From Paraburkholderia aromaticivorans (GTDB taxonomy: Bacteria > Pseudomonadota > Gammaproteobacteria > Burkholderiales > Burkholderiaceae): a DNA stretch of 64,000 nt. The position numbers and the translations under genes are program-made. Below are positions 6,636-22,074 of the stretch, in pieces. Below the pieces are notes generated by a model that saw nothing but the letters and a program-made list of their open reading frames with translations, was not told where the DNA came from and ran no database searches. The DNA is taken from assembly GCF_002278075.1 (NCBI RefSeq), contig NZ_CP022990.1, positions 1,798,001 through 1,862,000 on the forward strand, read 5' to 3'. The first letter of the stretch is position 1. Every line of letters starts with the position of its first letter.

Positions 6636-8600
6636 ATGCCTTACGTTTCGCAAAACCAGCACATTGAACGCGTGCGCGGCGCCATAGAAGGACGGCTTCC
6701 CGCGCCCGCCGACTCCACGCGCCTCGTATCGTCATGGCAGCGCTCGTTCGAACAATACCGGCTCGATCCCGGCGCGGTGATCGGCCCACGCGTGCTTACG
6801 TCTGCTGAATTGCGCGAAGTGCAGGGAAAAGAAGAAGCGTTCCTGCGTGCCTCGGGCCAATGCCTGAGCCGCCTGCACGACATGATTCGCGTAGCCGACT
6901 ACTGCGTGATGCTCACGGATGCGCACGGCGTCACGATCGATTACCGAATCGAGCGCGACCGCCGCAGCGATTTCAAGCACGCGGGACTGTATATCGGCTC
7001 TTGCTGGTCCGAGCGTGAAGAAGGCACATGTGGCGTGGCGAACGTACTGACCGATCTCGCGCCGATTACCGTGCACAAGACCGATCACTTCCGTGCCGCC
7101 TTCACGACCTTGACCTGCAGCGCCGCGCCGATTTTCGCCCCGACCGGCGAAATGATCGGCGTGCTCGACGCCTCCGCCGTCCGCTCGCCGGACAACCGCG
7201 ACAGTCAGCGGCTCGTGTTTCAACTGGTGCGCCAGAGCGCCGGTTTGATCGAGGATGGCTATTTCCTCAATCAAACCGCGCAACACTGGATCCTGTTCGG
7301 CCATTCGAGCCGTAATTTCGTCGAGGCCCAACCCGAGGTGCTGATTGCGTTCGACGAATGCGGCAATCTGGTCGCCGCCAATCGCAAAGCGCGCGAATGC
7401 ATTCCGGCGTTGAACGGCCCGCGCCATATCGACGAGATATTCGACACCGCCGAGGTGCGTCTGCACGATGTCGCGCGGACCGACGCGATTGTCTGCCTGC
7501 GTCTGCGCGCGACGGGCGCTGTTTTGTATGCGCGCATTCGCGCGCCGCTCAAACGCCCATCGCGCACGGCAAATGGCGCGGCCGCCGGTGCCACGCGGCA
7601 ATCGCACGGCGAGACGCAAGACGATCTGCAAGTCGGCGCCTTGGGCCGCTTTCTGAGAAGCGCCGACACGCGCATTGCTCACAACGCGTCGGTGGCATTG
7701 CGCATCATCGGCAAACGGTTGCCGATTCTGATTCTCGGCGAGACCGGCGTCGGCAAGGAAGTCTTCGCGCACGCGGTGCACGACTCGGGCGCGCGGCGCA
7801 CGCGGCCATTTATCGCGGTGAATTGCGGCGCGATTCCTGAATCGCTGATCGAGAGCGAACTGTTCGGCTACGCGCCCGGCGCCTTTACCGGCGCACGCAG
7901 CCGCGGCGCTCGCGGCAAGATCGCGCAGGCGCATACCGGCACGCTGTTTCTCGACGAAATCGGCGATATGCCGCTCAATCTGCAAACACGGCTGCTACGC
8001 GTGCTGGCGGAAGGCGAAGTCATGCCGCTCGGTGGCGATGCGCCCGTGCGCGTCGATATCGACGTGATCTGCGCCACCCACCGCGATCTCGCGCAGATGG
8101 TGGCGGAAGGATCGTTCCGCGAAGATCTCTATTACCGGCTAAGCGGCGCCAGTTTGCCGATGCCGCCGTTGCGCGAACGCGCGGATATCGGCGACGTGAT
8201 CGCGGCCGTGTTCGAAGAAGAAGCGCAAATGGCCGGCCACGTCCTCACGCTCGACCCGCGCCTCGCCGAGCGCCTCGCAACCTTCGCATGGCCGGGCAAC
8301 ATTCGCCAGTTGCGCAACGTCCTGCGTTACGCGTGTGCGATGTGCGATACCGCGCGTGTGGAATTGCGCCACTTGGCGCCGGACGTCGTCGCAATGCTGG
8401 AGCCCGAGGGCGCGGGCAATCGCGCATTGACGTCGGCCCTCGCGCAGCAGGACCCGCGCGACGAGCGCACGCGCATTATCGACGCGCTGACGCGGCATCA
8501 ATGGCGGCCCAATGCCGCCGCGCAATCACTGGGAATGTCGCGTGCGACCTTATACCGGCGCATCGCCAAGCTGGGCATCGTCGGGCCGCATCGCTGCTAA
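6636..8600 (+). CDS. acoR: Sigma-54-dependent activator of acetoin catabolism
   Basis: A 654-residue enhancer-binding protein. Residues about 70-200 form a GAF-type sensory region. The AAA+ domain has Walker A (GETGVGKE, about residue 367), the sigma-54 contact loop GAFTGA (about 414) and Walker B (TLFLDEIGD, about 437). A Fis-type helix-turn-helix ends the protein (AAAQSLGMSRATLYRRI). It is divergent from acoX, whose promoter is of the -24/-12 class, with two palindromes between them. It presumably activates the acetoin operon when acetoin is bound by the GAF region. The ATG has GGAG about 7 bases upstream. Confidence 0.92.
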   Translation: MPYVSQNQHIERVRGAIEGRLPAPADSTRLVSSWQRSFEQYRLDPGAVIGPRVLTSAELREVQGKEEAFLRASGQCLSRLHDMIRVADYCVMLTDAHGVTIDYRIERDRRSDFKHAGLYIGSCWSEREEGTCGVANVLTDLAPITVHKTDHFRAAFTTLTCSAAPIFAPTGEMIGVLDASAVRSPDNRDSQRLVFQLVRQSAGLIEDGYFLNQTAQHWILFGHSSRNFVEAQPEVLIAFDECGNLVAANRKARECIPALNGPRHIDEIFDTAEVRLHDVARTDAIVCLRLRATGAVLYARIRAPLKRPSRTANGAAAGATRQSHGETQDDLQVGALGRFLRSADTRIAHNASVALRIIGKRLPILILGETGVGKEVFAHAVHDSGARRTRPFIAVNCGAIPESLIESELFGYAPGAFTGARSRGARGKIAQAHTGTLFLDEIGDMPLNLQTRLLRVLAEGEVMPLGGDAPVRVDIDVICATHRDLAQMVAEGSFREDLYYRLSGASLPMPPLRERADIGDVIAAVFEEEAQMAGHVLTLDPRLAERLATFAWPGNIRQLRNVLRYACAMCDTARVELRHLAPDVVAMLEPEGAGNRALTSALAQQDPRDERTRIIDALTRHQWRPNAAAQSLGMSRATLYRRIAKLGIVGPHRC

Positions 8601-8641: not shown

Positions 8642-8971
8642 TCAGTGGCTGATCATCCAAGGCCTGCCTGCGGGATTGGTCTTCAAGCCGCCTGCGGTCG
8701 TCGCCCCCTTAGTCCTGCTCGACCCGCATCCACAACCGGGCCCGTGCCGGTGGGTGTACTCGCCTGAGCGTTGCGGCGCATGCGCCGAACGTTCGTTGAT
8801 CTGATGCCCGGTGCGTGCGCTTGCCGCCATCAACGACAACGAAGGCAGACTCAAGGTACGTTGCGCCGGTGCGTCGCAGGTGGGGCATGCGCAAGGCACG
8901 TCGCGCTCGGCGACGCGGCGGATCGCGGCGAATGGGCCGCAGTTTTCGCAACGGTAATCGTATGTCGGCAT
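8642..8971 (-). CDS. fmdB: FmdB-type zinc-ribbon protein
   Basis: A 109-residue protein with the N-terminal FmdB zinc ribbon (MPTYDYRCENCG, then CACPTC, two CxxC-type knuckles), followed by a variable tail with a second cysteine group (GPGCGCG). The ATG at 8971 begins the conserved domain; an upstream in-frame start adds 21 unrelated residues. FmdB proteins are found next to formamidases and amide transporters and have been proposed as regulators; their function is not firmly known. It is downstream of fmdA on the same strand and convergent with acoR. Confidence 0.88.
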   Translation of the reverse strand: MPTYDYRCENCGPFAAIRRVAERDVPCACPTCDAPAQRTLSLPSLSLMAASARTGHQINERSAHAPQRSGEYTHRHGPGCGCGSSRTKGATTAGGLKTNPAGRPWMISH

Positions 8972-9082
8972 GGTGCGCTCCTTGAATGCCTTAAGTCTTT
9001 CTCCGATGACCGCCGCTACTGCGACATCCAGCACGGCGGTCTTCCGGGCACGGCCCTCTCAGGTGTTTCGACAAAACCTACG

Positions 9083-10315
9083 TCAGACCAGATCCGGTGA
9101 CAAAGGCAGATCCACGCCGCCGGTAATATGCTTGACGGGTCCCGCGGAAGTCGGCCTGATATCGAAGTCGAAAATCTGCGTTGGCAACCAGAGCGTCGCG
9201 CACGCGTTCGGCACGTCAACGACGCCGCTGATATGCCCCTGCACCGGTGCCGTGCCCAGAATCGAGTAAGCCTGCGCGCCCGAGTAGCCGAACTTCTTCA
9301 GATACTCGATCGCATTCAGACACGCCTGGCGGTAGGCGATATGCACGTCCAGATAGTGCTGCTTGCCCTGTTCATCGACGGAGATGCCTTCGAAGATCAG
9401 GTAGTCGTTGTAGTGAGGCGTGATCGGGCTCGGCTTGAAGATCGGGTTCTTGATGCCGTATTTCTCCATGCCGCCCTTGATCAACTCGACCTTCATATGC
9501 ACCCAGCCGGCCATTTCAATGGCGCCGCAGAAGGTGATTTCGCCGTCGCCCTGACTGAAGTGCAAGTCGCCCACGGACAGACCCGCGCCGTCCACGTACA
9601 CCGGGAAATACACCTTCGAGCCGCGCGACAGGTCCTTGATGTCGCAGTTGCCGCCATGCTCGCGCGGCGGCACCGTGCGCGCCCCTTCGGCGGCGGCTTT
9701 GGCGCGCTCGTCGCCGGCGAGACGCCCCATGTGCGCAGTGGCGGCGAACGGCGGATTGGCGAGGCCGGGCACGCGCTGCGGGTCCGTGGCGATCAGCGCG
9801 GCTTCGCGCTCGTTCCAGGTGGCCAGCATCTTCGGATCAGGCAGGCAGCCGATCAGCCCCGGGTGGATCAGTCCCGCGAAGTTCACGCCGGGAATATGGC
9901 GCGAACTGGTGTAGAGACCATGAAAATCCCAGATCGACTTTTGCGCCTGCGGGAAATGATCGGTCAGGAAACCACCGCCGTTCTTCTTCGAGAAGAAGCC
10001 GTTGAAGCCCCATTGGCTCTCCTGCTTCGCGCCGATGTCGAGCAGGTCCACCACCAGCAGATCGCCCGGCTCCGCGCCCTTCACGCCCACCGGTCCGGAC
10101 AGGAAGTGCACGATGGAGAGATCGATATCGCGCACGTCGTCGGCACTGTCGTTGTTCTTGACGAAGCCACCGGTCCAGTCGTAAGTCTCCAGAATGAAAT
10201 CGTCGCCCGGATTGACCCAGCAGGCCATCGGAATATCCGGGTGCCAGCGGTTGTGGACGTTCTCGTTGTCGTAGGCCGACTGGTTCAGATCGACCTTGAT
10301 TAGCGTTTCAGCCAT
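9083..10315 (-). CDS. fmdA: Formamidase / acetamidase family enzyme
   Basis: A 410-residue FmdA_AmdA-family amidohydrolase that hydrolyses formamide or other short aliphatic amides to the acid and ammonia. Recognisable family segments include HNRWHPDIPM near the N-terminus, the IVHFLSGPVGVKGAEPGDLLVVDLLDIG stretch in the middle (start of which is shown here only in part), and the FSQGDGEI region. Length is full. It is the sixth gene of the transporter operon, 36 bases after urtE. The context says the imported substrate is an amide, with ammonia as nitrogen source. Confidence 0.93.
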   Translation of the reverse strand: MAETLIKVDLNQSAYDNENVHNRWHPDIPMACWVNPGDDFILETYDWTGGFVKNNDSADDVRDIDLSIVHFLSGPVGVKGAEPGDLLVVDLLDIGAKQESQWGFNGFFSKKNGGGFLTDHFPQAQKSIWDFHGLYTSSRHIPGVNFAGLIHPGLIGCLPDPKMLATWNEREAALIATDPQRVPGLANPPFAATAHMGRLAGDERAKAAAEGARTVPPREHGGNCDIKDLSRGSKVYFPVYVDGAGLSVGDLHFSQGDGEITFCGAIEMAGWVHMKVELIKGGMEKYGIKNPIFKPSPITPHYNDYLIFEGISVDEQGKQHYLDVHIAYRQACLNAIEYLKKFGYSGAQAYSILGTAPVQGHISGVVDVPNACATLWLPTQIFDFDIRPTSAGPVKHITGGVDLPLSPDLV

Positions 10316-10351: not shown

Positions 10352-11041
10352 TCACACCGACAGGTACTCGCGGATCTTCGCGGTGTCGGCGTCGCTGCGC
10401 GTGCTCTCATGCACGAGGCGCCCGCCTTCGATGACGAAGAGCCGGTCGGCCACATCGAGCGCGAAACTCAGGACCTGCTCGGACACGACGATCGTGATGT
10501 CGCGCAGCTTGCGGATCTCGTTCAACGCGCGCGCGATGTCCTTGATGATGGACGGCTGAATGCCCTCGGTGGGCTCGTCGAGCAGCAGCACCTTGGGCTC
10601 CGTGACCAGCGCGCGGGCAATCGCCAGTTGTTGCTGCTGGCCCCCGGACAGGTTGCCGCCCTTGCGCGAGCGCATCTCGTAGAGCACCGGAAAGAGCGCG
10701 TAGATTTCGTCGGGCACGCGCTTCGTGGGCGAGTTCTCCAGACCGGTCTGGATGTTCTCCTCCACGCTCAACGTGGCGAAGATTTGCCGCCCCTGTGGCA
10801 CATACGCGATACCTTTGGCGACGCGCCGAAAGCTTTCATCGCGCGATACGTCTTCGCCATCCACCTGCACCGAGCCCGCCTTGAGCGGCAGGATGCCGAT
10901 CAGCGACTTGAACAGCGTGGTCTTGCCCATGCCGTTGCGTCCCATGATCGCCACGGTTTCGTTGCGCGCGGCGTTGAAGCTGATGCCGTGCAAGGCCTCG
11001 CTTTGGCCGTAACTGACGAATACGTCGTCGACATTCAACAT
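10352..11041 (-). CDS. urtE: Urea/short-chain amide ABC transporter ATPase UrtE
   Basis: A 229-residue LivF-like ATP-binding subunit. It shows Walker A (GRNGMGKTT), the signature LSGGQQQ, and Walker B (VLLLDEPTEG) with the EGIQPSI continuation seen in UrtE. It pairs with UrtD to power the UrtBC permease. It is equivalent to one of the FmdDEF transporter components of methylotroph amide operons. It sits between urtD and fmdA. Confidence 0.92.
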   Translation of the reverse strand: MLNVDDVFVSYGQSEALHGISFNAARNETVAIMGRNGMGKTTLFKSLIGILPLKAGSVQVDGEDVSRDESFRRVAKGIAYVPQGRQIFATLSVEENIQTGLENSPTKRVPDEIYALFPVLYEMRSRKGGNLSGGQQQQLAIARALVTEPKVLLLDEPTEGIQPSIIKDIARALNEIRKLRDITIVVSEQVLSFALDVADRLFVIEGGRLVHESTRSDADTAKIREYLSV

Positions 11042-11097: not shown

Positions 11098-11841
11098 TCA
11101 GTGGCCCAGATAAACGTCGATCACGCGCGGGTCGTTTTGCACCTGCTCCATCGCGCCTTCGGCGAGAATCTTTCCCTGGTGCATCACCGTGACCTTGTGG
11201 GCAATCTGCTCGACAAATGCCATGTCATGTTCGATCACGATCATCGAGCGGTTCTGGCAGATGCGTTTGAGCAGCTCGGCCGTGATCTCGCGCTCGCGCA
11301 CGCTCATGCCGGCAATCGGCTCGTCGAGCATCAGCAGTTCCGGCTCCTGCATCAGCAACATGCCGATTTCGAGCCACTGTTTCTGACCGTGCGACAGCAA
11401 GCCTGCTTCGAGGTCGAACTGACCAGCGAGGCCAATCTCTCCGGCCACGCTTCTCACGCGGTCCATCACGTCGTCGGTGCGGCGAAACGCCAGCGCGCCG
11501 AACACGCCGCGTCCGCGCGGAAACGACACTTCGAGGTTCTGAAACACGGAGAGGTTTTCGTAAATCGACGGCGTCTGGAACTTGCGGCCGATCCCTTTTC
11601 GTACCCGGCGAAACTCGGGCAATTGCGTCATCTCTTCGTTGCGGAACTTGATGCTGCCCTGGGTCGCCCGCGTCTTGCCGCAGATAAGGTCGAGGAGCGT
11701 CGTCTTACCCGCGCCGTTCGGTCCGATCACCACGCGCAGTTCGCCGCGATCCACATACAGGTTCAGCGAATCGATCGCCTTGAAGCCGTCGAAGGACACG
11801 CTCAGTTCTTCCACCGCCAGCACGAAATCAGTATTGCTCAT
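11098..11841 (-). CDS. urtD: Urea/short-chain amide ABC transporter ATPase UrtD
   Basis: A 247-residue LivG-like ATPase with Walker A (GPNGAGKTT), an SHGQKQWLEIG signature of the UrtD type (H in place of the usual second G), and Walker B (LLMLDEPIAGM). I choose the ATG at 11841 because AAGGAG lies 6 bases upstream and the stop of urtC overlaps it by 4 bases (ATGA type). A longer in-frame extension to 11991 is inside urtC and not conserved. Confidence 0.92.
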   Translation of the reverse strand: MSNTDFVLAVEELSVSFDGFKAIDSLNLYVDRGELRVVIGPNGAGKTTLLDLICGKTRATQGSIKFRNEEMTQLPEFRRVRKGIGRKFQTPSIYENLSVFQNLEVSFPRGRGVFGALAFRRTDDVMDRVRSVAGEIGLAGQFDLEAGLLSHGQKQWLEIGMLLMQEPELLMLDEPIAGMSVREREITAELLKRICQNRSMIVIEHDMAFVEQIAHKVTVMHQGKILAEGAMEQVQNDPRVIDVYLGH

Positions 11842-13001
11842 GAGGCGCTCCTTGCGCCGCGGCGCGCGAGCCACGGCTTCACATGACTGTCGTAGAGACC
11901 GGCGAGCCCGTTCGGAAACGCCATCACCACGCCGATAAAGAGCGCAGCCATCAGGAACAGCCACAGATTCGGAAAGCTCTCCGAAAACCACGTCTTGCCG
12001 AGATTGACGAGCACCGCGCCGTAGACCGCGCCGACCAGCGACATGCGCCCGCCGACCGCGGCATAGATCACCATTTCGATGGACGGCACGATCCCCACGA
12101 ACGACGGTGACATGAAGCCCACCTGCAACGTGAACATCGCACCACCGATCGCGGCGAGCACCGCGGCGACACAGAACGCGAACACCTTGAACATGGCCAC
12201 GTCATAACCGGAAAAACGCACGCGGTCTTCCTTGTCGCGCATGGCCAGCAGCAGCGTGCCGAGCTTGCTGCGCTGGATTTGCCGGCAACACAGAATCGCC
12301 ACCAGCAGCAGCACCGCGTTGACGAAGTACAGGATCAGCTTCGCACCGTCGCCGCGAATGTCCCAGCCAAGCAGGGTGCGCAAATCCGTGATGCCGTTCA
12401 CGCCGCCCGTGTAGCCCTGCTGGCCGATAATCAGCACCGACAGAATCAGCGCCACCGCCTGCGTGATGATGGCGAAGTACACGCCGCCCACGCGCCGCTT
12501 GAACATGGCGAAGCCCACCACGAACGCCAGCGCGCACGGCACGACCACCACCGCCGCAAGGGCGAACGGCAGCGAATGAAACGGCTTCCACCAGAACGGC
12601 AAGGCGGTGAGCTGGTTCCAGTCCATGAAGTCGGGAATGCCGGGCGTCGACTGGATCTTCGTGCTGACCGGGTCGGAGGCCTCGAGCTTCAGGAACATGG
12701 CCATGCAATAGCCGCCGAGTCCGAAAAACACGCCTTGCCCGAGACTCAGCACACCGCCGTAGCCCCACGCCATCACGAGGCCGACGGCGACGAACGCGTA
12801 GGTCAGATACTTGCCCATCAGGTTCAGACGGAACACGTCGAGCGCGAGCGGAAACACCACCAGAATCAGCGCCGCCAGCACAGCGAGGCTGCCGTAGCCA
12901 TCGGTGGTCAGCCAGCGCCACGGCGCGGGCCGCAAGCCGGCACGAGCGGCGGCACGATCCGGCGATGCGGGCACACCGGCGGAAGGGTTCAGCGGGTCCA
13001 T
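11838..13001 (-). CDS. urtC: Urea/short-chain amide ABC transporter permease UrtC
   Basis: A 387-residue LivM-like inner-membrane permease with about ten hydrophobic segments. Characteristic UrtC segments are GYGGVLSLGQGVFFGLGGYCMAM and DKEDRVRFSGYD (each shown in part of a longer match). It forms the channel together with UrtB. It starts 60 bases after the urtB stop and overlaps urtD by 4 bases. Length is normal. Confidence 0.92.
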   Translation of the reverse strand: MDPLNPSAGVPASPDRAAARAGLRPAPWRWLTTDGYGSLAVLAALILVVFPLALDVFRLNLMGKYLTYAFVAVGLVMAWGYGGVLSLGQGVFFGLGGYCMAMFLKLEASDPVSTKIQSTPGIPDFMDWNQLTALPFWWKPFHSLPFALAAVVVVPCALAFVVGFAMFKRRVGGVYFAIITQAVALILSVLIIGQQGYTGGVNGITDLRTLLGWDIRGDGAKLILYFVNAVLLLVAILCCRQIQRSKLGTLLLAMRDKEDRVRFSGYDVAMFKVFAFCVAAVLAAIGGAMFTLQVGFMSPSFVGIVPSIEMVIYAAVGGRMSLVGAVYGAVLVNLGKTWFSESFPNLWLFLMAALFIGVVMAFPNGLAGLYDSHVKPWLARRGARSAS

Positions 13002-13061: not shown

Positions 13062-13979
13062 TCACGCACGGCGCACCTTCGACGCGAAGAGTCCCTGCGG
13101 CCGCAGCATCAGCACGATCACAATGGTCAACAACGTCACCACGCGCGCCGACGAGCCCGTCATGAAGAACTCGCTGATCGACTGCATCTGCGCAATGCCG
13201 AAAGCGGATGCCACCGTGCCGAGCAGGCTCGCGGCGCCGCCGAACGTCACCACGAGGAACGAATCGACGATATACAGCGAGCCGCTGGTCGGCCCGGTGG
13301 AGCCGATCGCAGTGAACGCGGCGCCCGCGACGCCCGCCATGCCGCAGCCGATCGCGAAGGTCAGCCGGTCGGTCTTGCGCGTATCAATGCCCGCGGCATT
13401 CGCCATCTGACGGTTCGCCACGGTGGCTCGCACACGCAAGCCCCAGCGCGAGCGGTACAGCGCCAGCAGCACGCCGCCCGTCATCAGCACGGCAAGGCTC
13501 ATCACGAAGAGGCCGTTGATCGGAATGTCGAGCCCCGGCTTCGGCGACCACGAGCCCATGAGCCAGTCCGGCAAGGTCGGACTCACTTCTTTCGGGCCGA
13601 ACACCGAGCGGAATACCTGCTGCATGCCGAGGCTCAGCCCCCACGTGGCCAGCAAGGTGTCGAGCGGTCGCCGGTAGAGATGGCGGATCAGCGCCCACTC
13701 GGCGACCCACCCGGCCGCGAACGCGAGTGCGAAGGCGGCACAAATGGCGAGCGGGAAATACACGGGCGCGAAGCCGTGCCAATAGTTGTCGGCCAGCTGC
13801 GAAAACATGTAGATCGTATAAGCGCCGATCGTCATGAATTCGCCGTGCGCCATATTGATGACGCCCATCTGGCCGAAGATCACCGCCAGCCCCAGCCCCA
13901 TCAGCAGCAGCACGCTGAAAAGGCTCAAGCCCGCGAAACCCTGCATCAGCGTGATGTTAAGAATGTCCGAAGCCGACAT
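13062..13979 (-). CDS. urtB: Urea/short-chain amide ABC transporter permease UrtB
   Basis: A 305-residue LivH-like permease with the conserved AVIFGQMGVINMAHGEF loop and many transmembrane helices. The ATG at 13979 is preceded by AGGAG at 8 bases; an in-frame upstream Met has no such site. It lacks the long periplasmic N-terminal domain of some annotated UrtB proteins, which is normal for the amide-type transporters. It is the second gene of the operon, after urtA. Confidence 0.92.
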   Translation of the reverse strand: MSASDILNITLMQGFAGLSLFSVLLLMGLGLAVIFGQMGVINMAHGEFMTIGAYTIYMFSQLADNYWHGFAPVYFPLAICAAFALAFAAGWVAEWALIRHLYRRPLDTLLATWGLSLGMQQVFRSVFGPKEVSPTLPDWLMGSWSPKPGLDIPINGLFVMSLAVLMTGGVLLALYRSRWGLRVRATVANRQMANAAGIDTRKTDRLTFAIGCGMAGVAGAAFTAIGSTGPTSGSLYIVDSFLVVTFGGAASLLGTVASAFGIAQMQSISEFFMTGSSARVVTLLTIVIVLMLRPQGLFASKVRRA

Positions 13980-14053
13980 ATGGCTCTCCTCGAATTGATC
14001 GGCGCGCGCCCGCACTGCGGCGAGCGCGCTTCACGCGTGGCTTGCTGGGGCGA

Positions 14054-15319
14054 TTACTGATAACCCTTCGGGAACGGGTTAGGCTCGATCAGATCCGGCG
14101 ATTCCGCGACCACCTTGAACTGGCCGTCCGCCTGCGCCTGTCCGATCCGCGTGCGGCTCCACAAGTGATGGTTGGCGTGGATCTTCACGTAGCCTTCCGG
14201 CGCGCTCTTCAGTTCGATGCCAGGCGAGGCCGCCACCACCTTGTCGACGTCGAAGCTGCCGGCCTTTTCCACCGCCGCTTTCCAGAGCCACGGTCCGAGA
14301 TAGGCCGCCTGGGTGACGTCGCCGATCACGGATTTCGGCCCGTATTTCGCCTTGAATGCCGCGACGAATTTCTTGTTGTTGTCGTTCTCGAGCGACTCGA
14401 AATACTTCATGGCCGAATAGAAGCCCGCGAAGTTTTCGCCGCCAATGCCGAGCACTTCGTCTTCCGTCACCGAGATGGTCAACAGGAACTGCTTGTCCGC
14501 GGTGATGCCGGCCGCTTTGAGCTGCTTGTAGAACGCCACGTTCGAACCGCCGACGATAATCGCGTAGATGCAATCCGGCTTGGCGATCTTGATCTTGTTG
14601 ATCAGCGAATTGAAGTTGGTGGTGCCGAGCGGGTAGTACTCCTCGCCCACCACCTTGCAGCCGCTCAGATGCTGCTCGATGTGCTTGCGCGCAATCTTGT
14701 TCGAGGTGCGCGGCCAGATGTAGTCCGAGCCGATCAGGAAGAAGCTCTTCGCCTTCTTCGTCTGGTTCGCCCAGTTCAGCCCCCAGAGAATCTGCTGGGT
14801 CGCTTCCTGGCCGGTGTAGAACACGTTGTGCGACTGCTCCAGGCCTTCGTAGAAGGTCGGGTAGTACAACAGGCCGTTGTCGCGTTCGAAAATCGGCAAC
14901 ACCGCCTTTCGCGAGGCCGACGTCCAGCAGCCGAACACGGCGGCGACGTGATCGTTTTCCAGCAGCTTCTTCGACTTTTCAGCGAACGTCGGCCAGTCGG
15001 ATGCGCCGTCTTCCTGAATCACCTTGATCTTGCGGCCGAGAATGCCGCCCGCCGCGTTGATCTGTTCGATCGCAAGCCGCTCGGCCTGAATCGAGCCGGT
15101 TTCGGAGATGGCCATCGTGCCGGTCGCCGAGTGCAACTGACCCACCGTCACTTCCGTGTCGGTGACGGCAAGGTGAGTGGTGTTGACTTTCGCGGTCGGA
15201 AACTGCTGGGCCCGCGCGATGCCGGACACGGCCAGCGCGGGCGCGGCAGCGAGTCCCATCAACAGTTTGCGGCGCAGGGCCGAGGGCATGCCGGACTCGT
15301 TCTGATCATCGTGTGACAT
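14054..15319 (-). CDS. urtA: Urea/short-chain amide ABC transporter substrate-binding protein UrtA
   Basis: A 421-residue periplasmic binding protein. The N-terminus has a twin-Arg-like signal (RRKLLMGLAAAPALAVSG then ARAQQ), consistent with Tat or Sec export. The mature part matches UrtA/FmdD-type binding proteins (VGQLHSATGTMAISE, FGCWTSASRKAVLP, YYPTFYEGLEQS). The ATG at 15319 has AAGGAG 7 bases upstream; a GTG at 15385 has none. It is the first gene of urtABCDE-fmdA-fmdB. The ligand is probably a short amide or urea, inferred from fmdA. Confidence 0.93.
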   Translation of the reverse strand: MSHDDQNESGMPSALRRKLLMGLAAAPALAVSGIARAQQFPTAKVNTTHLAVTDTEVTVGQLHSATGTMAISETGSIQAERLAIEQINAAGGILGRKIKVIQEDGASDWPTFAEKSKKLLENDHVAAVFGCWTSASRKAVLPIFERDNGLLYYPTFYEGLEQSHNVFYTGQEATQQILWGLNWANQTKKAKSFFLIGSDYIWPRTSNKIARKHIEQHLSGCKVVGEEYYPLGTTNFNSLINKIKIAKPDCIYAIIVGGSNVAFYKQLKAAGITADKQFLLTISVTEDEVLGIGGENFAGFYSAMKYFESLENDNNKKFVAAFKAKYGPKSVIGDVTQAAYLGPWLWKAAVEKAGSFDVDKVVAASPGIELKSAPEGYVKIHANHHLWSRTRIGQAQADGQFKVVAESPDLIEPNPFPKGYQ

Positions 15320-15416
15320 CGAATTCTCCTTGTAGTCGTGGTCGGGCGACCCGCGCCGTGAACGGGATGGCGGTGTCGACGCCACGAAAGGTAGGTAGCC
15401 AAATTGCGCCGCCCAA

Positions 15417-15432
15417 TACGTCAGTTGACGTA
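15417..15432. promoter_or_regulatory. Inverted repeat between amide operon and its two-component genes
   Basis: TACGTCA-GT-TGACGTA is a perfect 7+2+7 inverted repeat in the divergent intergenic region. Its centre is about 43 bases upstream of the start predicted for the plus-strand kinase promoter and about 105 bases before the urtA ATG. Size and position fit a LuxR-type response-regulator site, presumably for the regulator at 19030-20094. Confidence 0.6.
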
Positions 15433-15455
15433 GGGCGTGACAAAAATCCGCTCCC

Positions 15456-15461
15456 TATAAT
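15456..15461 (+). promoter_or_regulatory. -10 element (TATAAT) of the sensor-kinase promoter
   Basis: A perfect TATAAT lies 112 bases before the chosen kinase start. No -35 hexamer is present at 16-18 bases (the position reads GGGCGT). The inverted repeat at 15417-15432 sits just upstream, so activation by a bound regulator in place of a -35 contact is plausible. Confidence 0.5.
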
Positions 15462-15572
15462 CGCGGCGGCGTGGCGTGCCTCGGCGGCATGAGGGCAGGG
15501 AGGCGAGCGTGAATGGAATGCAATTTGCATGGCCGCACCGCTAGTCACGGAATCCGCCGACGAAAGGCCCCG

Positions 15573-18500
15573 ATGCACCAAACGCAACCACAGAACCCGC
15601 TGCCCGCCGGTCCGGCCACCCAAGCTGGGGCATCGCGCCCGCCGGCAGCCGGCACGCAGCGCATCGTCAAAATCCGCCGCGACTACAACGCGTGGGTCGG
15701 CGACGAGACGCTCGAGGATTACGCGTTGCGGTTCACGCCGCGCACGTTCCGGCGCTGGTCGGAATTCCGCGTCGCCAATACGGCGATCGGCGCGGTGTCG
15801 TTTCTCGTGCTCGAAGCGATTGGCGGCGCGCTGGTCGTGAACTACGGCTTCACCAACGCAATCTGCGCGATTCTCGCTGTCTCCCTGCTGATCTTCTTGA
15901 CGGGCATCCCGATCAGCTATTACGCCGCACGCAACGGCGTCGACATGGATCTGCTCACGCGCGGCGCGGGCTTCGGCTACCTGGGTTCGACGCTCACTTC
16001 ACTGATCTATGCGGTCTTCACCTTCGTCTTTTTCGCGCTGGAAGCGGCCATCATGTCGCTCGCGCTGGAGCTGTATCTGAAGGTGCCGCTTTCCGTGGCT
16101 TATGTGATCAGCGCGCTCGTCATCATTCCGGCCGTGACCTTCGGCATCACGTTCATCAACCGTCTGCAGGGATGGACCCAGCCGTTGTGGCTCGTGCTGC
16201 TGGTCGTGCCCTACGCGGTGGTGTTGTGGCGTGAACCGCACGTGCTTGCGGAATGGGTGACGTTTGGCGGAATCTCAGGCAGCGGCCATGAATTCAACCT
16301 CGTCGCTTTCGGCGCGGGGTGCACGGTGGTGTTTTCGCTGATCGTGCAGATTGGCGAGCAGGTCGACTATCTGCGCTTTCTACCGCCGCGCACGCGCGCC
16401 AATCGCTTTCGCTGGTGGGCCGCGCTGATCGCGGCCGGGCCTGGCTGGATCGTGCCGGGCGCGATGAAGATGCTGGGCGGCGCGTTCCTCGCCTTCCTCG
16501 CCATCCAGCACGAGATCGATCCGGTCAAGGCCGTCGAACCCACGCAGATGTATCTGGTCGCATATCACTACGTGTTCCACTCGCCTGAAGGCGCGCTCGC
16601 CGCGATGACGCTGTTCGTGATCGTGTCGCAACTGAAGATCAACGTGACGAACGCCTACGCCGGCTCGCTCGCGTGGTCGAATTTCTTTGCGCGGCTCACG
16701 CACAGCCATCCGGGGCGCGTGGTGTGGCTCGTGTTCAACGTGCTGATTGCGTTGCTGCTCGTCGAGATGGGCGTGTTCGAGGCCATCAGCAAAGTGCTTG
16801 CGCTGTATGCCAACGTGGCGATCGCCTGGATTGGCGCGGTGGTGGGCGACCTCGTCATCAACAAGCCGCTCGGGTATAGCCCGCGCCACGTCGAGTTCAA
16901 ACGCGCGCATCTGTACGACGTCAATCCGGTCGGCGTGGGCGCCATGCTGTTCGCTTCGCTGATTGCCGCGCTTTCGCATGCGGGCGTTTTCGGCACCACG
17001 GCTGAGGCGCTGTCGTCGTTCATTGCGTTGCTGGTCGCGTTCATTTGCGCGCCGCTGCTGGCGATCGCCACACGCGGACGCTTCTATCTGGCGCGCGATG
17101 GCCGCGACCTCGAAGCAGGCGCGATACTGCGCTGCGTGATCTGCGAAAACACCTTCGAACGCGAGGACATGGCGCACTGCCCGGCTTACGCCGGTTCGAT
17201 CTGTTCGCTGTGCTGCTCACTCGACTCGCGCTGCAACGACTCCTGCAAACCGCACGCACGGCTGCCCGCGCAATTCGGCAATTCCATGCGCACCCTCTTT
17301 CCCAAGCTCAAGCTCGGGCCGGCGGGCTTGCGGCTCGCGCAGTACGCCGGCTTGCTGATTGCCGTGGTGACGCTACTCGGCGGCGTGCTGGCGGTGCAGT
17401 GGTATCAGAGCGTGCGCACCCTGCCCAATCTCGACACGACCGTTCACGACGTGCTGTTGCAGGGCTATCTGAAGGCGTTCTTCGCGCTGGCGCTGGTCGG
17501 ATGCATTGCCGCGTGGTGGCTCGTGCTCGCCAACGAAAACCGCAAGGTCACCCAGGAAGAATCGCAGCGGCAAGCCGAATTGCTGATGCAGGAAATCGAG
17601 GCGCACCGCAAGACCGATGCGGCGCTTCAGCGAGCGAGCGCCGCGGCCGAATCCGCCAACCGCGCAAAGAGCCGCTATGTGACGGGCCTGAGTCACGAGT
17701 TGCGCACGCCGCTCAACAGCATCCTCGGTTATGCGCAACTGTTGCTGCAAGGCACCGACGAACTGCCGCCGGCGCGACGCAATGCCGTGGCGACCATCTA
17801 TCGCAGCGGCGAACATCTGCTGGCGCTGGTGGATGGCCTGCTCGACGTGGCGCGGATCGAGGCCGGCAAGCTGCAGTTGAATGTGACCGAAATCTCGCTG
17901 CCCGATTTCGTCGCGCAACTCTCCGCGATGCTGGAACCGCAGGCCACCGACAAGGGACTGCAGTTCGAATTCCACACGAGCGGGCGCATGGCGGACGTGG
18001 TGCGCATCGACGAAAAGCGCGTGCGGCAGATTCTCATCAACCTGATCGGCAACGCGATCCGCTTCACGTCGCACGGTTCCGTGAAGGTGCGCGCCGGCTA
18101 TGCGTGGGAGACCATTACTTTTGAAATCGCCGATACCGGCCCCGGCATGCCGGCCACCGAACTGGAGCGGCTATTCCTGCCATTCGAGCGCGGTGCCGCG
18201 GCGCGCGAACACGATCACGGCGCCGGGCTGGGACTGACCATCTGCCGCATGCTCACGGAATTGATGGGCGGCAACCTGGACGTGCAAAGCGAAGTGGGCA
18301 AAGGCACGCGCTTTATCGTCAAGCTGTTCGCGCCTGAAGTGCGCGCGCCGCAGTTGCTGGCGAGCGGCCCGCTCAACGTGAAGGGTTACGACGGTCCGCG
18401 CCGCACCGTGCTGGTGGTGGACGATCTCGCGGAGCAACGCCGCATCGTGGTGCAGACGCTGGCGCCGCTCGGCTTTAACGTGGTGGAAGCGGCTAGCGGA

Positions 18501-19037
18501 CCGGAGGCGCTGCAGTGGCTCGGCACCGCGTCAGCGGACCTGATCGTGATGGACGTGTCGATGCCGGACATGGACGGCTTCGAGGCGAGCCGCCTGATTC
18601 GCGACAACCATCTGTCGGCGGCGCCGGTTCTGATTCTGTCCGCCAACGCATTCGCCGATGACCGCGACAAAGGCGCCGCGGCCGGTTGCGACGACTACCT
18701 CGCCAAACCGCTCTACATTCCGCTCCTGCTCGACAAACTGGCCGCGCTGCTGCAACTGCACTGGATCGTCGAGCCGACCGACACCGTGGCAACCGCCTCC
18801 GCCGTTGCACGGATCGACGTGACGGCGAGCCTGCCCGCCCCGCTGCGCGAAAAGCTGCAGGCGCAACTGGAAATGGGCTACGTGCAGGGTTTTATCGAAC
18901 AACTCGACGCCGCCGAACATGGCGCGCCGGAACTCGCCAGCGTGCTCGAACCGTTGCGCGCGTTGGCGCGCCGCTTCCGGTTGACTGAACTCGCGCATCT
19001 GCTCGCGCCCACCCAGCAGGTCAATCCCGATGCATGA
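15573..19037 (+). CDS. NCS1-type permease fused to Cys-rich module, histidine kinase and receiver
   Basis: A 1154-residue membrane hybrid sensor kinase. Residues about 65-500 form a 12-helix nucleobase:cation symporter-1 (cytosine/allantoin permease) domain. Residues 521-558 hold eight cysteines (CVIC, CP, CSLCC, C, C), probably binding metal. Two more membrane segments follow at about 590-610 and 637-655, then a coiled coil. The kinase core has HisKA with H708 (LSHELRTPLN), an N box (NLIGNAI), DTGPGMP and GAGLGLTI. The receiver at about 945-1065 has phospho-acceptor D994 and K1045. The ATG at 15573 has AAAGG upstream. It overlaps the LuxR-type regulator by 8 bases and diverges from the amide operon, so it probably senses amides, urea or a related compound. 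Confidence 0.9.
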   Translation: MHQTQPQNPLPAGPATQAGASRPPAAGTQRIVKIRRDYNAWVGDETLEDYALRFTPRTFRRWSEFRVANTAIGAVSFLVLEAIGGALVVNYGFTNAICAILAVSLLIFLTGIPISYYAARNGVDMDLLTRGAGFGYLGSTLTSLIYAVFTFVFFALEAAIMSLALELYLKVPLSVAYVISALVIIPAVTFGITFINRLQGWTQPLWLVLLVVPYAVVLWREPHVLAEWVTFGGISGSGHEFNLVAFGAGCTVVFSLIVQIGEQVDYLRFLPPRTRANRFRWWAALIAAGPGWIVPGAMKMLGGAFLAFLAIQHEIDPVKAVEPTQMYLVAYHYVFHSPEGALAAMTLFVIVSQLKINVTNAYAGSLAWSNFFARLTHSHPGRVVWLVFNVLIALLLVEMGVFEAISKVLALYANVAIAWIGAVVGDLVINKPLGYSPRHVEFKRAHLYDVNPVGVGAMLFASLIAALSHAGVFGTTAEALSSFIALLVAFICAPLLAIATRGRFYLARDGRDLEAGAILRCVICENTFEREDMAHCPAYAGSICSLCCSLDSRCNDSCKPHARLPAQFGNSMRTLFPKLKLGPAGLRLAQYAGLLIAVVTLLGGVLAVQWYQSVRTLPNLDTTVHDVLLQGYLKAFFALALVGCIAAWWLVLANENRKVTQEESQRQAELLMQEIEAHRKTDAALQRASAAAESANRAKSRYVTGLSHELRTPLNSILGYAQLLLQGTDELPPARRNAVATIYRSGEHLLALVDGLLDVARIEAGKLQLNVTEISLPDFVAQLSAMLEPQATDKGLQFEFHTSGRMADVVRIDEKRVRQILINLIGNAIRFTSHGSVKVRAGYAWETITFEIADTGPGMPATELERLFLPFERGAAAREHDHGAGLGLTICRMLTELMGGNLDVQSEVGKGTRFIVKLFAPEVRAPQLLASGPLNVKGYDGPRRTVLVVDDLAEQRRIVVQTLAPLGFNVVEAASGPEALQWLGTASADLIVMDVSMPDMDGFEASRLIRDNHLSAAPVLILSANAFADDRDKGAAAGCDDYLAKPLYIPLLLDKLAALLQLHWIVEPTDTVATASAVARIDVTASLPAPLREKLQAQLEMGYVQGFIEQLDAAEHGAPELASVLEPLRALARRFRLTELAHLLAPTQQVNPDA

Positions 19038-20094
19038 CGACACTGTGCTCCTGCCGCCCGAGACGCAACCGGACTTGCCCGACGGCAAGCCGGTAGTGCT
19101 GATCGTCGACGACACCCCCGACAATCTCGCGCTGCTCTCCGAAACGCTGCAGGCGGCCGGCTACGCGGTACTGGTGGCGCTGGACGGCCAGTCCGCGCTG
19201 CAACGTCTTGCGCGCATCACGCCTGACGCCGTCCTGCTCGACGCGCTGATGCCTGGCCTCGACGGCTTCGAGACGTGCCGGCTAATCAAGGCCGATCCGC
19301 GCAACCGGCATCTGCCCGTGATCTTCATGACCGCACTGACCGATAGCGAACACGTGGTGCAGGGTTTTCGCGTGGGCGGCATCGATTACGTCACCAAGCC
19401 CGTCAAGCCCAGCGAGGTCAGCGCGCGAATTGCCGCGCACGTGCAGCGCTCGCGCCAGCAGCGTCAGGCGGACATGGTGCTGGAGATCGGCATGCGCGCA
19501 GCGCTGATCGCGGCGGCGAGCGGCGAGATCAGGTGGCAGAGCGATCTGGCGCGGCAACGGCTGGCGTGGTACGAGATGGCGCGCACGCCGACGGATGCGC
19601 GAAATGGAGACACTGGCGATCTGGAGCCGGCTTCGGCTTCGTTGGCGTCGGGATGTGTCGACACAGCTTCGCCATTGCAGCACCCGCTCATCGAAGCCGG
19701 TCCGCGTTTGCCGACGACGCTGGAGCAGTGGTTCGTGCGCTGGATCGAAGCCGGTTGCGACTTGCAAGCCGCGTTCGAGACCGCCGCCGACGGCGTGCGC
19801 CGCGTTGCGCGCGTACTGGGCCCCGCAACGCGTGGCGAATGGGTGATCCTGCTGGAAGAATTCGACGATGCCGCTCATACCAGCGCCCTCGCCTCGCAAT
19901 TTGGCCTGACAGCACGCGAAGCGGAGGTGCTGCTGTGGCTCTCGCGCGGCAAGACAAACCGGGATATCGGCGACATTCTCGGGATGGCGCCGCGCACGGT
20001 GAACAAGCACCTCGAACATGTGTTCGGCAAGCTGCATGTCGAAACGCGCGCGGCTGCCGCGGCGATTGCGGCTAAGGCGAGCACGCGGTATTGA
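19030..20094 (+). CDS. LuxR-family response regulator of the permease-kinase
   Basis: A 354-residue response regulator. The N-terminal receiver has the acidic pair (LIVDD), phospho-acceptor D71 (AVLLDALMP), T (FMTA) and K (VTKPVKP). A linker of about 130 residues follows, with a low-complexity part between about 180 and 215. A LuxR/NarL helix-turn-helix ends the protein (LTAREAEVLLWLSRGKTNRDIG). It overlaps the kinase gene by 8 bases, so the two are translated together. Its likely target is the inverted repeat at 15417-15432 and thereby the urt/fmd operon; this is inference. Confidence 0.9.
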   Translation: MHDDTVLLPPETQPDLPDGKPVVLIVDDTPDNLALLSETLQAAGYAVLVALDGQSALQRLARITPDAVLLDALMPGLDGFETCRLIKADPRNRHLPVIFMTALTDSEHVVQGFRVGGIDYVTKPVKPSEVSARIAAHVQRSRQQRQADMVLEIGMRAALIAAASGEIRWQSDLARQRLAWYEMARTPTDARNGDTGDLEPASASLASGCVDTASPLQHPLIEAGPRLPTTLEQWFVRWIEAGCDLQAAFETAADGVRRVARVLGPATRGEWVILLEEFDDAAHTSALASQFGLTAREAEVLLWLSRGKTNRDIGDILGMAPRTVNKHLEHVFGKLHVETRAAAAAIAAKASTRY

Positions 20095-20400: not shown

Positions 20401-22074
20401 ATGATGACGATCAGGATAGGGAAACGTAAGCGAGTCGCCGCCAGCGTGGGCGCTGTCGTGCTTGCCGGGCTGTACTCGATGGGAGCGGCAGCAGCCGAAG
20501 ACCACGACCGCGATCACCAGCATGAATCGGTGAAGCGTGTACTGCTGATCAGCTTCGATGGTTTGCATGAGCAGGACGTCGCACGTTGTATCGGTTCCAA
20601 TGCATGCCCGAATCTTGCGTTGCTGGCCCGGTCGGGAACGACTTACACCAACGCACACACGCCAGGCCTGTCGGATTCATTCCCCGGCCTTGCGGCGCTC
20701 GTGACCGGCGGTTCGCCCAAATCCGCAGGCCTGTTCTACGACGTGTCTTATGACCGCACGCTGTACGCGCCGTCCGATACCAATTGCACCGGCAAGCAAG
20801 GCTGGAACGTCGTATTCGACGAGACCACCGGTATCGACGGCGAGAACGGCGGCGCATTGACGCATCTCGATGGTGGCGGCGCGTTCAATCCGCAGGCCAT
20901 CCCGCATGCTTTGGTCAACGGCATCTGTACGCCCGTCTATCCGCACAATTATGTGAAGACCAACACGATCTTCGAAGTGGTCAAACGCAACGTGAAAGGC
21001 GCGCGCACCGCCTGGGCCGACAAACACGCATGGGGCTACGACTGGCTCAATGGACCGTCCGGCACGGGCGTCGACGATCTTTCGCGCACCGAGATCAATT
21101 CGATTGATCCGGCTACGAACACGAACTACACCGACGTCTACACGCACACGGAGCAGTTCGACAATCTCCACGTGCAGTCGTTGATCAATGAGATCGACGG
21201 CAAGGATTCGACGGGTCAATCCAGCGCAGAGGTGCCCACCGTCTTTGGAACCAACTTCCAGACCTTGAGCGTCGCCCAGAAGGCGACAGTCGCCGCTGGC
21301 GGAGGCTATCTGGATGCGAGTTTCACGCCGGGGCCACAGGTCACCAACGCCATTGCCTATCTGGACAGCGCCTTGGGCCGCATCGTTTCCGAACTGAAGC
21401 AGCGCAACCTCTATTCGTCGACAGCGATCATCGTCACGGCGAAGCACGGGCAATCCCCGACCGATCATTCGAAGCTGATCAAGAACGGCGACACGCTCTC
21501 AAAACTGCTTGAAGCAAACAACTATCTGGATCCGAACGGCAACTTCGGGCAGAACAGTACGAAGAGCGGCAACCTCAATGACGGAACGGGCCTTGTCGGT
21601 ACGGGTTTCGTGCAGACCGACGACGTCGGCCTGATCTGGTTGCGCGATCAAAGCCAACTGCCCGCGGTGGTGAAATCCTTGAAAGACAACCTGGGTTGCA
21701 ACGCTCCCGGCATTTGCGCGGACGGCCCGCAGGCGTACATTCTGTACGGCCCGCAGTTGAGTGGCCGGTTCGGCGATCCTGCGGGTGGACGCACGCCTGA
21801 CATCGTCGTCCAGCCGAACCCGGGGGTCATCTATACCTCGAGCAAGACCAAGGACGAAGAGCACGGCGGCAACGCTCCCGACGACAGCCATCTCGGACTG
21901 GTGATCTACGTGCCTCACGCCCATCACGCTGGACGGATGAACGACGAGCATGTCCTGACCACGCAGGTTGCGCCGACGATTTTGCGTTTGCTCGATCTGA
22001 ACCCTGAATTGCTGCACTCGGTCGCGATTGAGGGAACGCGTGCGCTGCCGGAGTTCGATCGGGAGCGCTTCTAG
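20401..22074 (+). CDS. Exported type I phosphodiesterase / alkaline phosphatase superfamily protein
   Basis: A 557-residue protein with a signal peptide (hydrophobic AGLYSMGAAAA region, cleavage near residue 32). The mature protein starts the phosphodiesterase/nucleotide-pyrophosphatase fold with metal ligand D53 (LLISFDGL). The nucleophile region is SDSFPG at 91-96, where the classic family has a Thr/Ser before FPN. The second metal site has TAKHGQSPTDH, and a late EEHGG/DDSH region also contributes ligands. It probably hydrolyses phosphodiester or phosphonate bonds in the periplasm; the substrate is unknown. AGGA is placed well for the ATG at 20401; an adjacent ATG at 20404 is also possible. 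It appears to be a single-gene unit followed by a hairpin. Confidence 0.85.
   Translation: MMTIRIGKRKRVAASVGAVVLAGLYSMGAAAAEDHDRDHQHESVKRVLLISFDGLHEQDVARCIGSNACPNLALLARSGTTYTNAHTPGLSDSFPGLAALVTGGSPKSAGLFYDVSYDRTLYAPSDTNCTGKQGWNVVFDETTGIDGENGGALTHLDGGGAFNPQAIPHALVNGICTPVYPHNYVKTNTIFEVVKRNVKGARTAWADKHAWGYDWLNGPSGTGVDDLSRTEINSIDPATNTNYTDVYTHTEQFDNLHVQSLINEIDGKDSTGQSSAEVPTVFGTNFQTLSVAQKATVAAGGGYLDASFTPGPQVTNAIAYLDSALGRIVSELKQRNLYSSTAIIVTAKHGQSPTDHSKLIKNGDTLSKLLEANNYLDPNGNFGQNSTKSGNLNDGTGLVGTGFVQTDDVGLIWLRDQSQLPAVVKSLKDNLGCNAPGICADGPQAYILYGPQLSGRFGDPAGGRTPDIVVQPNPGVIYTSSKTKDEEHGGNAPDDSHLGLVIYVPHAHHAGRMNDEHVLTTQVAPTILRLLDLNPELLHSVAIEGTRALPEFDRERF

Follow-up and report, generated by a model that had tools for sequence, protein, structure and literature searches.

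Histidine kinases with a transporter-type membrane domain are already known. CbrA and CrbS, the SLC5/STAC kinases, carry such a domain fused to the kinase (PMC7096432, PMC5715377, PMC13022988), and an Amt-type ammonium sensor kinase of Kuenenia likewise joins a nitrogen-compound transporter to a kinase (PMC5764959). The subject of this study is a further fusion of this kind, found in 64,000 nucleotides of Paraburkholderia aromaticivorans DNA (assembly GCF_002278075.1, contig NZ_CP022990.1, forward-strand positions 1,798,001 to 1,862,000; ‘the window’ hereafter, with positions counted from its first letter), in which an NCS1-type permease domain, a cysteine-rich module, and a hybrid histidine kinase share one open reading frame (ORF) divergent from a urtABCDE-fmdA-fmdB operon. 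We think it likely that this kinase and the LuxR-type regulator encoded beside it form a dedicated two-component system for short-chain amides or urea, with a transporter-derived NCS1 input and with the regulator acting at a palindrome.

CrbS is also a hybrid kinase with a LuxR-type regulator, CrbR (PMC5715377), and is in this respect similar to the system in the window. The window kinase differs from CbrA and CrbS in having an NCS1 instead of an SLC5 domain and in carrying a module of eight cysteines and two additional helices where CbrA has STAC (and PAS); its presumed targets are amide/urea genes, as opposed to acetate in the case of CrbS and histidine plus global carbon control in the case of CbrA. 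The Kuenenia kinase is distinguished by family and compound, Amt and ammonium as against NCS1 and amide/urea (PMC5764959). Amide-responsive control of amide genes is known from the aliphatic amidase, whose AmiC is a periplasmic-binding-type sensor and whose AmiR is an RNA-binding antiterminator (PMC13209695), rather than the membrane kinase and LuxR-type regulator found here. GrtK/GrtR of B. glumae was considered and set apart on the strength of its description as a separate ammonia-responsive system (PMC12918730). On the P. veronii chromosome, a formamidase accompanies urtABCDE and formamide uptake has been suggested; the text of that paper does not contain the term ‘histidine kinase’ (PMC13209695). 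Among the matches listed for titles and abstracts of the open-access literature, none was an NCS1–kinase fusion, and the window kinase adds to a known class a member that we have not found described.

Architecture of the kinase and its locus

The kinase gene (15513..19037, + strand) encodes 1174 amino acids (aa), with a second ATG at codon 21 as a possible alternative start. Its product begins with an NCS1-type permease domain (approximately aa 50–528; 15660..17096), recognized through hhalign and through a bridging free-standing permease (L194), and continues with an 8-Cys module (aa 541–578; 17133..17246) and two hydrophobic segments (aa 601–635 and 644–677; 17313..17543), called as additional membrane segments from Kyte–Doolittle hydropathy peaks. 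Pfam then recognizes, in the same frame as the transporter-type domain, HisKA (aa 718–785) and HATPase_c (aa 833–938; together 17664..18326), with the phospho-His box SHELRTPL at aa 727, and a receiver (Response_reg, aa 966–1075; 18408..18737), whose candidate phospho-Asp lies at aa 1014 in DVSMPDMDG. The adjoining gene on the same strand (19030..20094), which overlaps the kinase gene by 8 nucleotides (nt), encodes a 354-aa response regulator with a receiver (PF00072) and a GerE/LuxR-type helix-turn-helix (HTH; PF00196); of the features expected of an orthodox hybrid two-component system with a LuxR-type regulator, a phospho-His box, a receiver Asp, and an adjacent regulator with receiver and HTH are present. 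A preliminary description of the window, made by a model from the letters and their ORFs, had proposed this order of domains and the overlapping regulator gene, and Pfam, hhalign, and hydropathy agree with it.

The same description placed a urtABCDE-fmdA-fmdB operon in divergent orientation, and each of the five Urt proteins indeed exceeds its NCBIfam cut-off. All the genes lie on the − strand: the urtA-like binding-protein gene (14054..15319; TIGR03407, 531 bits, cut-off 492.75), whose ORF extends to 15385 and whose likely start, as read from the sequence, is an ATG at 15319 behind AAGGAG; the urtB-like permease gene (13062..14015; TIGR03409, 392.1 bits, cut-off 250.3); the urtC-like permease gene (11838..13001; TIGR03408, 447 bits, cut-off 296.2); the urtD-like ABC ATPase gene (11098..11991; TIGR03411, 369.3 bits, cut-off 304.1), whose ORF overlaps urtC and whose true start is probably further downstream, because the family match starts at residue 57; the urtE-like ABC ATPase gene (10352..11041; TIGR03410, 335 bits, cut-off 285.8); the formamidase gene fmdA (9083..10315; NF045496, 778.6 bits, cut-off 500; PF03069); and fmdB (8642..9034), encoding an FmdB-family zinc-ribbon protein with an RPWMISH domain (NF053663 and TIGR02605, both above cut-off). 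Another UrtA in the same genome (C1:344196) scores 592.4 bits, as against 531.6 for that of the window; since the window operon includes a formamidase and the higher-scoring UrtA lies elsewhere, we infer that this Urt system is as likely to take up an amide as urea.

The permease domain and the NCS1 family

Direct searches leave the permease domain unnamed: it has no Pfam match, no permease is among the 25 NCBIfam matches listed, and a PDB sequence search returned no match. In hhalign, however, a profile built from 56 sensors and four NCS1 permeases from the window’s genome can be aligned across 421 columns, with a probability of 96% and E 2.8e-9. The sensor profile also retrieves the free-standing permease L194 at E 2.6e-40, and L194 in turn matches PF02133 with 36.4 bits (Pfam cut-off 23.5). 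These comparisons place the domain within NCS1 (PF02133), with homology across the whole membrane domain, and thus make it a homologue of the membrane domain of the hydantoin permease Mhp1. An identity as an SLC5/SSF kinase was rejected, as the Pfam scans contain neither SSF nor STAC and the profile comparison gives NCS1. In one source, homologues go under the title ‘signal transduction histidine kinase/purine-cytosine permease-like protein’. Over aa 50–700, the best homologue is 98% identical and is named P. xenovorans.

In Mhp1, a Ser/Thr pair of transmembrane helix 8 (TM8), Ser312-Thr313, belongs to the Na2 site. In a mapping made at low identity and leaving TM6 unmappable, Mhp1 Gln121, Ser312, and Asn318 align with Glu, Lys, and Asn in 23/23 sensors and 9/9 close free-standing relatives, so that Glu177, Lys375, and Asn380 are common to both groups at positions aligned to the Mhp1 substrate and Na2 sites. 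The sensor differs from Mhp1 in escaping Pfam recognition, in having Glu for Gln121 and Lys-Ile for Ser312-Thr313, and in its C-terminal kinase. The Mhp1-type Na2 pair is absent from all 23 sensors, position 375 being Lys throughout and position 376 Ile in 22 and Val in one; this does not exclude NCS1 membership, because three of four other classical sequences also lack the exact pair. TM1 sets the two groups apart: all 56 sensors of alignment A2 have Glu101, and the two close relatives compared have Asp one position earlier. Averaged over 48 loci, identity to the window is 66.5% for the permease domain, 48.3% for the kinase part, and 47.9% for the regulator; the better conservation of the permease domain is what would be expected if it held a constrained ligand site.

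The cysteine module

The eight cysteines (aa 541, 544, 556, 564, 567, 568, 574, and 578) fall within 38 residues in the pattern C-x2-C-x11-C-x7-C-x2-CC-x5-C-x3-C, a spacing unchanged in 72/72 loci, and the order permease–Cys module–kinase recurs in relatives from many families. A profile of the module has 62 matches in 398 genomes, 58 of which are in these kinases; the other four are short fragments in frames of 28–57 aa with E >0.001. The C-termini of the free-standing relatives are recognizable versions of the module without most of the cysteines. Five of the eight close relatives match it by tblastn, with E values from 1e-5 to 1e-6; among 121 listed actinobacterial-type sequences, 16 of whose tails were read, the tail has one Cys in 116, two in four, and none in one. 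Comparison with PDB gave weak matches, mostly zinc fingers aligned to the first part of the module, and none that was convincing. If the module binds metal, it would most likely hold two Zn by its eight thiolates, in a structural or coupling role.

Distribution and gene neighbourhood

The survey covers 398 evenly drawn Pseudomonadota genomes, 53 of which have profile matches, 52 with a permease domain (G288, the source of locus L195, being excluded). Of 58 regions fetched from this sample, 56 contain NCS1 kinases (L138–L193), one contains the free-standing permease L194, and one the permease-less kinase L195. A search of named genomes returned a further 80 loci, from which the 15 with an NCS1 domain (L028–L042) were retained and the 65 matching elsewhere only were dropped; with a second copy in the window’s own genome (L027), 72 loci besides the window are available. 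Kinase-part matches below 30% identity were omitted from the locus scan, and the partner labels, amide-type and urea-type, were set by identity thresholds.

Formamidase, urt, or urease genes lie within the examined stretch of 71 of these 72 loci, the remaining one (L193) being on a 4.8-kb contig. Forty-eight are divergent from urtA, followed on the urtA strand by urtBCDE and fmdA (in some with genes before fmdA). Seventeen are beside urease genes, ten of them also having a urea-type urtA in the stretch, and L167 has a urea-type urtA only. An amide-type UrtA without fmdA in the stretch occurs in L154 and L036, where contigs end, and in L027, where L026, which overlaps it, carries fmdA and most of the urt genes.

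The association was also tested from the side of the formamidase. FmdA occurs in 40/398 genomes (UrtA in 169/398), and 39 of those 40, from 15 families, also have the kinase, compared with 52/398 overall (p 1.4e-41); the sole FmdA genome without it is G114. Of the 44 FmdA genes, 40 share a contig with the kinase and are separated from it by less than 15 kb; the four exceptions are both genes of G111 (whose kinase is located where a contig ends), the second copy of G196, and that of G114. The preliminary description, which had proposed such a search, held that its link would be wrong if homologous kinases never adjoined amide genes; they commonly do, and a palindrome shared by target promoters (see below) adds to the linkage. 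Its ligand class fared less evenly: the amide association holds, and amide alone does not cover the family, as 18/72 loci have urease and/or urea-type urt genes, so that ‘short-chain amide or urea’ fits better.

Four genomes (G246, G379, G225, and G158) have two copies each, one amide-linked and one urease-linked, and on a partner tree, made by a quick method and with several long branches, four changes per label are required, at least two of them forced by strongly supported branches, compared with a shuffled mean of 16–17. Kinases of the urease-linked branch are longer, with open frames of up to 1365 aa (L174, L181, L192, and other Comamonadaceae-like urease loci). In L190 and L191, fmdA is on the other side and the kinase core is different: the permease–Cys unit is on a shorter, receiver-less kinase unmatched by the window kinase part, with other regulators adjoining. 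The presence of the unit on another kinase core near fmdA points to the unit as the input. The converse arrangement occurs in L195 (10357–12213), whose kinase no longer carries the permease domain and retains little of the Cys module; a gene for a regulator of this type adjoins it on the opposite strand.

The window’s genome has a full-length paralogue that is 71% identical, within a second whole copy of the module on the 152-kb contig C6 (L026, L027). This copy adjoins a CN-hydrolase (amidase) gene, a VWA gene, a gene for an AmiC-like binding protein, and a PF02133 permease gene with an alpha/beta hydrolase gene; the region is a second amide island of the genome. Permease-domain matches, free-standing permeases included, occur in 525/72,556 plasmid records, 342 of them Klebsiella. 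One Klebsiella plasmid region (pKPN3-307_typeB, L199) is annotated with a formamidase, a urea ABC transporter, and an ‘ATP-binding protein’; its annotated formamidase gene is 1008 nt long, as against 1233 nt in the window, and lies approximately 200 bp from an IS1 transposase gene.

A palindrome at the target promoters

The only TACG-N8-CGTA in the window is the 16-bp palindrome TACGTCAGTTGACGTA (15417..15432), between urtA and the kinase gene, which we regard as the candidate regulator-binding site; its first base is also the start of the piece treated in the preliminary description. CrbR offers a precedent, since at its promoters it needs an inverted repeat, placed immediately upstream (PMC5715377). 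Of 54 amide-type loci, counting that of the window, 45 have the motif in the divergent region no more than 460 bp upstream of the permease match, as against a mean of 0.13 in dinucleotide shuffles; of 18 urea-type loci, one has it there. A scan of whole stretches in 28 loci, among them those without an upstream site, added 11 loci in which the motif precedes a separated fmdA or a urea-type urtA, bringing the urea-type total to 8/18. It stands before fmdA where fmdA is apart from urt (L162, L169, L172), before the urea-type urtA in all six members of one alphaproteobacterial clade (L149, L161, L163, L164, L167, L040), and before that of L171 and L178; in L040 and L171, a simple gene caller had extended the urtA frame across the motif. 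L149 and L183 have an additional match inside a gene.

Two places in the window’s 8.9-Mb genome carry the strict form, TACGTCNNNTGACGTA, and both are at copies of the module. On two plasmids, one from Klebsiella (L199) and one from Burkholderia (L202), the motif is again in the gap between urtA and the kinase gene. On a megaplasmid of Sinorhizobium (L201), whose kinase gene and urtA have other genes between them, it stands just before the likely urtA start. In Acinetobacter L200, the kinase gene and a gene for a free-standing permease diverge, with the motif between them. A sigma-54 promoter near urtA was sought and set aside, there being no consistent match in the 14 loci inspected, and 15250–15700 of the window contains no sigma-70 consensus. 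Elsewhere in the window, the gene at 6636–8600, beyond fmdB, encodes a sigma-54 activator that has a GAF and a Fis-type HTH domain, and the regulator gene is followed by one for a type I phosphodiesterase/nucleotide pyrophosphatase (20401–22074).

Free-standing relatives

Eleven permeases not fused to a kinase were examined, eight of them close (approximately 44–46% identical to the sensor domain) and three distant (25–30%). Eight of the 11 adjoin urease, formamidase, or amidase genes, a count taken with the PLSDB gene table being incomplete. Close relatives lie beside an aliphatic amidase and an acetate-CoA ligase gene (Arthrobacter U41), beside a urease operon (Acinetobacter ursingii), divergent from fmdA-fmdB (Moraxella), near fmdA (Tsukamurella), and directly after ureG (Klebsiella NZ_CP129771.1, L218, a record that also carries rpoD and dnaG); the last could be the urea permease of its urease locus. 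Among the distant ones, L194 has nitrilase-like and AmiC-like neighbour genes (read by eye), that of Pantoea is beside a nitrilase-related hydrolase gene, and that of Rhodococcus is beside an amidase gene. Additionally, msmeg_3402 (‘cytosine permease’, a possible member of this subfamily) and msmeg_3403 (formamidase) are reported among genes changed under nitrogen limitation (PMC4617892).

Proposed mechanism and its alternatives

The system could operate as follows. The ligand is probably formamide or some other short amide in the window, and urea in the urease-linked branches. It would bind in the pocket of the NCS1-subfamily permease, which is joined through the 8-Cys module and two extra helices to the hybrid histidine kinase; the change would be relayed from the pocket to the kinase by way of the Cys module and the paired helices; and the overlapping LuxR-type regulator, once phosphorylated, would bind TACG-N8-CGTA and activate, rather than repress, the divergent urtABCDE-fmdAB operon. 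In a wider form, toward which we lean only slightly, an NCS1 subfamily would handle urea and short amides, and one of its branches, in Pseudomonadota, would have become a membrane receptor, its pocket coupled via the 8-Cys (two-metal) module to a kinase that has been paired more than once with formamidase or urease operons under a conserved palindrome.

Several observations weigh against this mechanism. No residue clearly separates amide- from urea-linked sensors; the candidates tried were weak and mostly conservative changes (e.g. 342 Glu to Asp). A receiver on a kinase usually needs a separate histidine phosphotransfer (Hpt) domain; Pfam finds none in the kinase, no search was aimed at a free-standing Hpt, and the tail after the kinase receiver has two His (aa 1136 and 1162). 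Sixteen loci have no motif at the target promoter, namely the amide-type L166, L168, L175, L183, L190, and L191 and ten urea-type loci; the regulator of urease-linked loci lacking the palindrome may use another site. The one-mismatch form of the motif has one further place in the window’s genome, no more than a reversed control pattern. Among the close free-standing relatives, that of Acinetobacter baumannii is divergent from the kinase itself with no such enzyme beside it, and those of Streptomyces and Arthrobacter NicSoilB11 show no urease, formamidase, or amidase link. In each of L187 and L188, one stop codon is reported in the profile match, and none is present in the 680 codons translated. 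Finally, the SLC5 domain of CbrA is dispensable for signalling in P. putida, where transported histidine leaves kinase activity unchanged (PMC7096432).

This last observation opens an alternative, unlikely yet deserving of attention, in which the NCS1 domain transports the amide or merely anchors the protein, and the kinase is driven by the Cys module, by the intracellular nitrogen state, or by ammonium. CbrA does transport histidine though its SLC5 domain is unneeded for signalling (PMC7096432), the Cys module is as invariant as the remainder of the sensor, and the substrate-site residues of the sensors match those of the free-standing permeases, so that the domain may also transport. Such a split accords less well with neighbours that are specifically amide/urea genes, with a permease domain that is the better-conserved half of the protein, and with L195, a single case, where the 19.9-kb stretch that includes the permease-less kinase contains neither a urt nor an fmd match.

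The two other explanations are very improbable in our view. Classical NCS1 permeases carry hydantoin, allantoin, and uracil, and the signal might accordingly be a cyclic ureide or nucleobase (hydantoin, allantoin, or uracil), the amide genes being one output among others; kinship of fold with hydantoin, allantoin, and cytosine permeases and source names such as ‘allantoin permease’ for the free-standing relatives speak for this. The sensors and close relatives nevertheless differ from four of five classical NCS1 proteins at Gln121 (Glu) and from five of five at Ser312 (Lys), and the neighbours observed are amide or urea genes, no search of the loci having been aimed at purine/ureide genes. Least probable of all is that these genes are transmitted jointly in a nitrogen island, frequently plasmid-borne, while the kinase controls other targets. 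The plasmid matches do suggest that the module is mobile, but the palindrome stands before fmdA or urtA in many families, even with genes between kinase and target; its strict form is confined to the module copies in the window’s genome; and of five loci (L198, L217–L220) in which a permease is accompanied by urease, formamidase, or amidase genes and tblastn detects no kinase, four have no motif and the fifth (L220) has one distant match.

Implications

If the proposed mechanism is correct, the kinase would be a membrane receptor for urea and amides and a sensor kinase derived from a transporter family for which we found none described. With the kinase present in 39/40 FmdA genomes, the kinase–regulator pair is the likely regulator of the formamidase–urt module. 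The findings also suggest a role in urea and amide biology for an NCS1 subfamily whose members are named ‘purine-cytosine’ or ‘allantoin’ permeases in databases. As a fusion of transporter and kinase independent of those involving SLC5 and Amt, the family would offer a system for asking how a transporter becomes a receptor.

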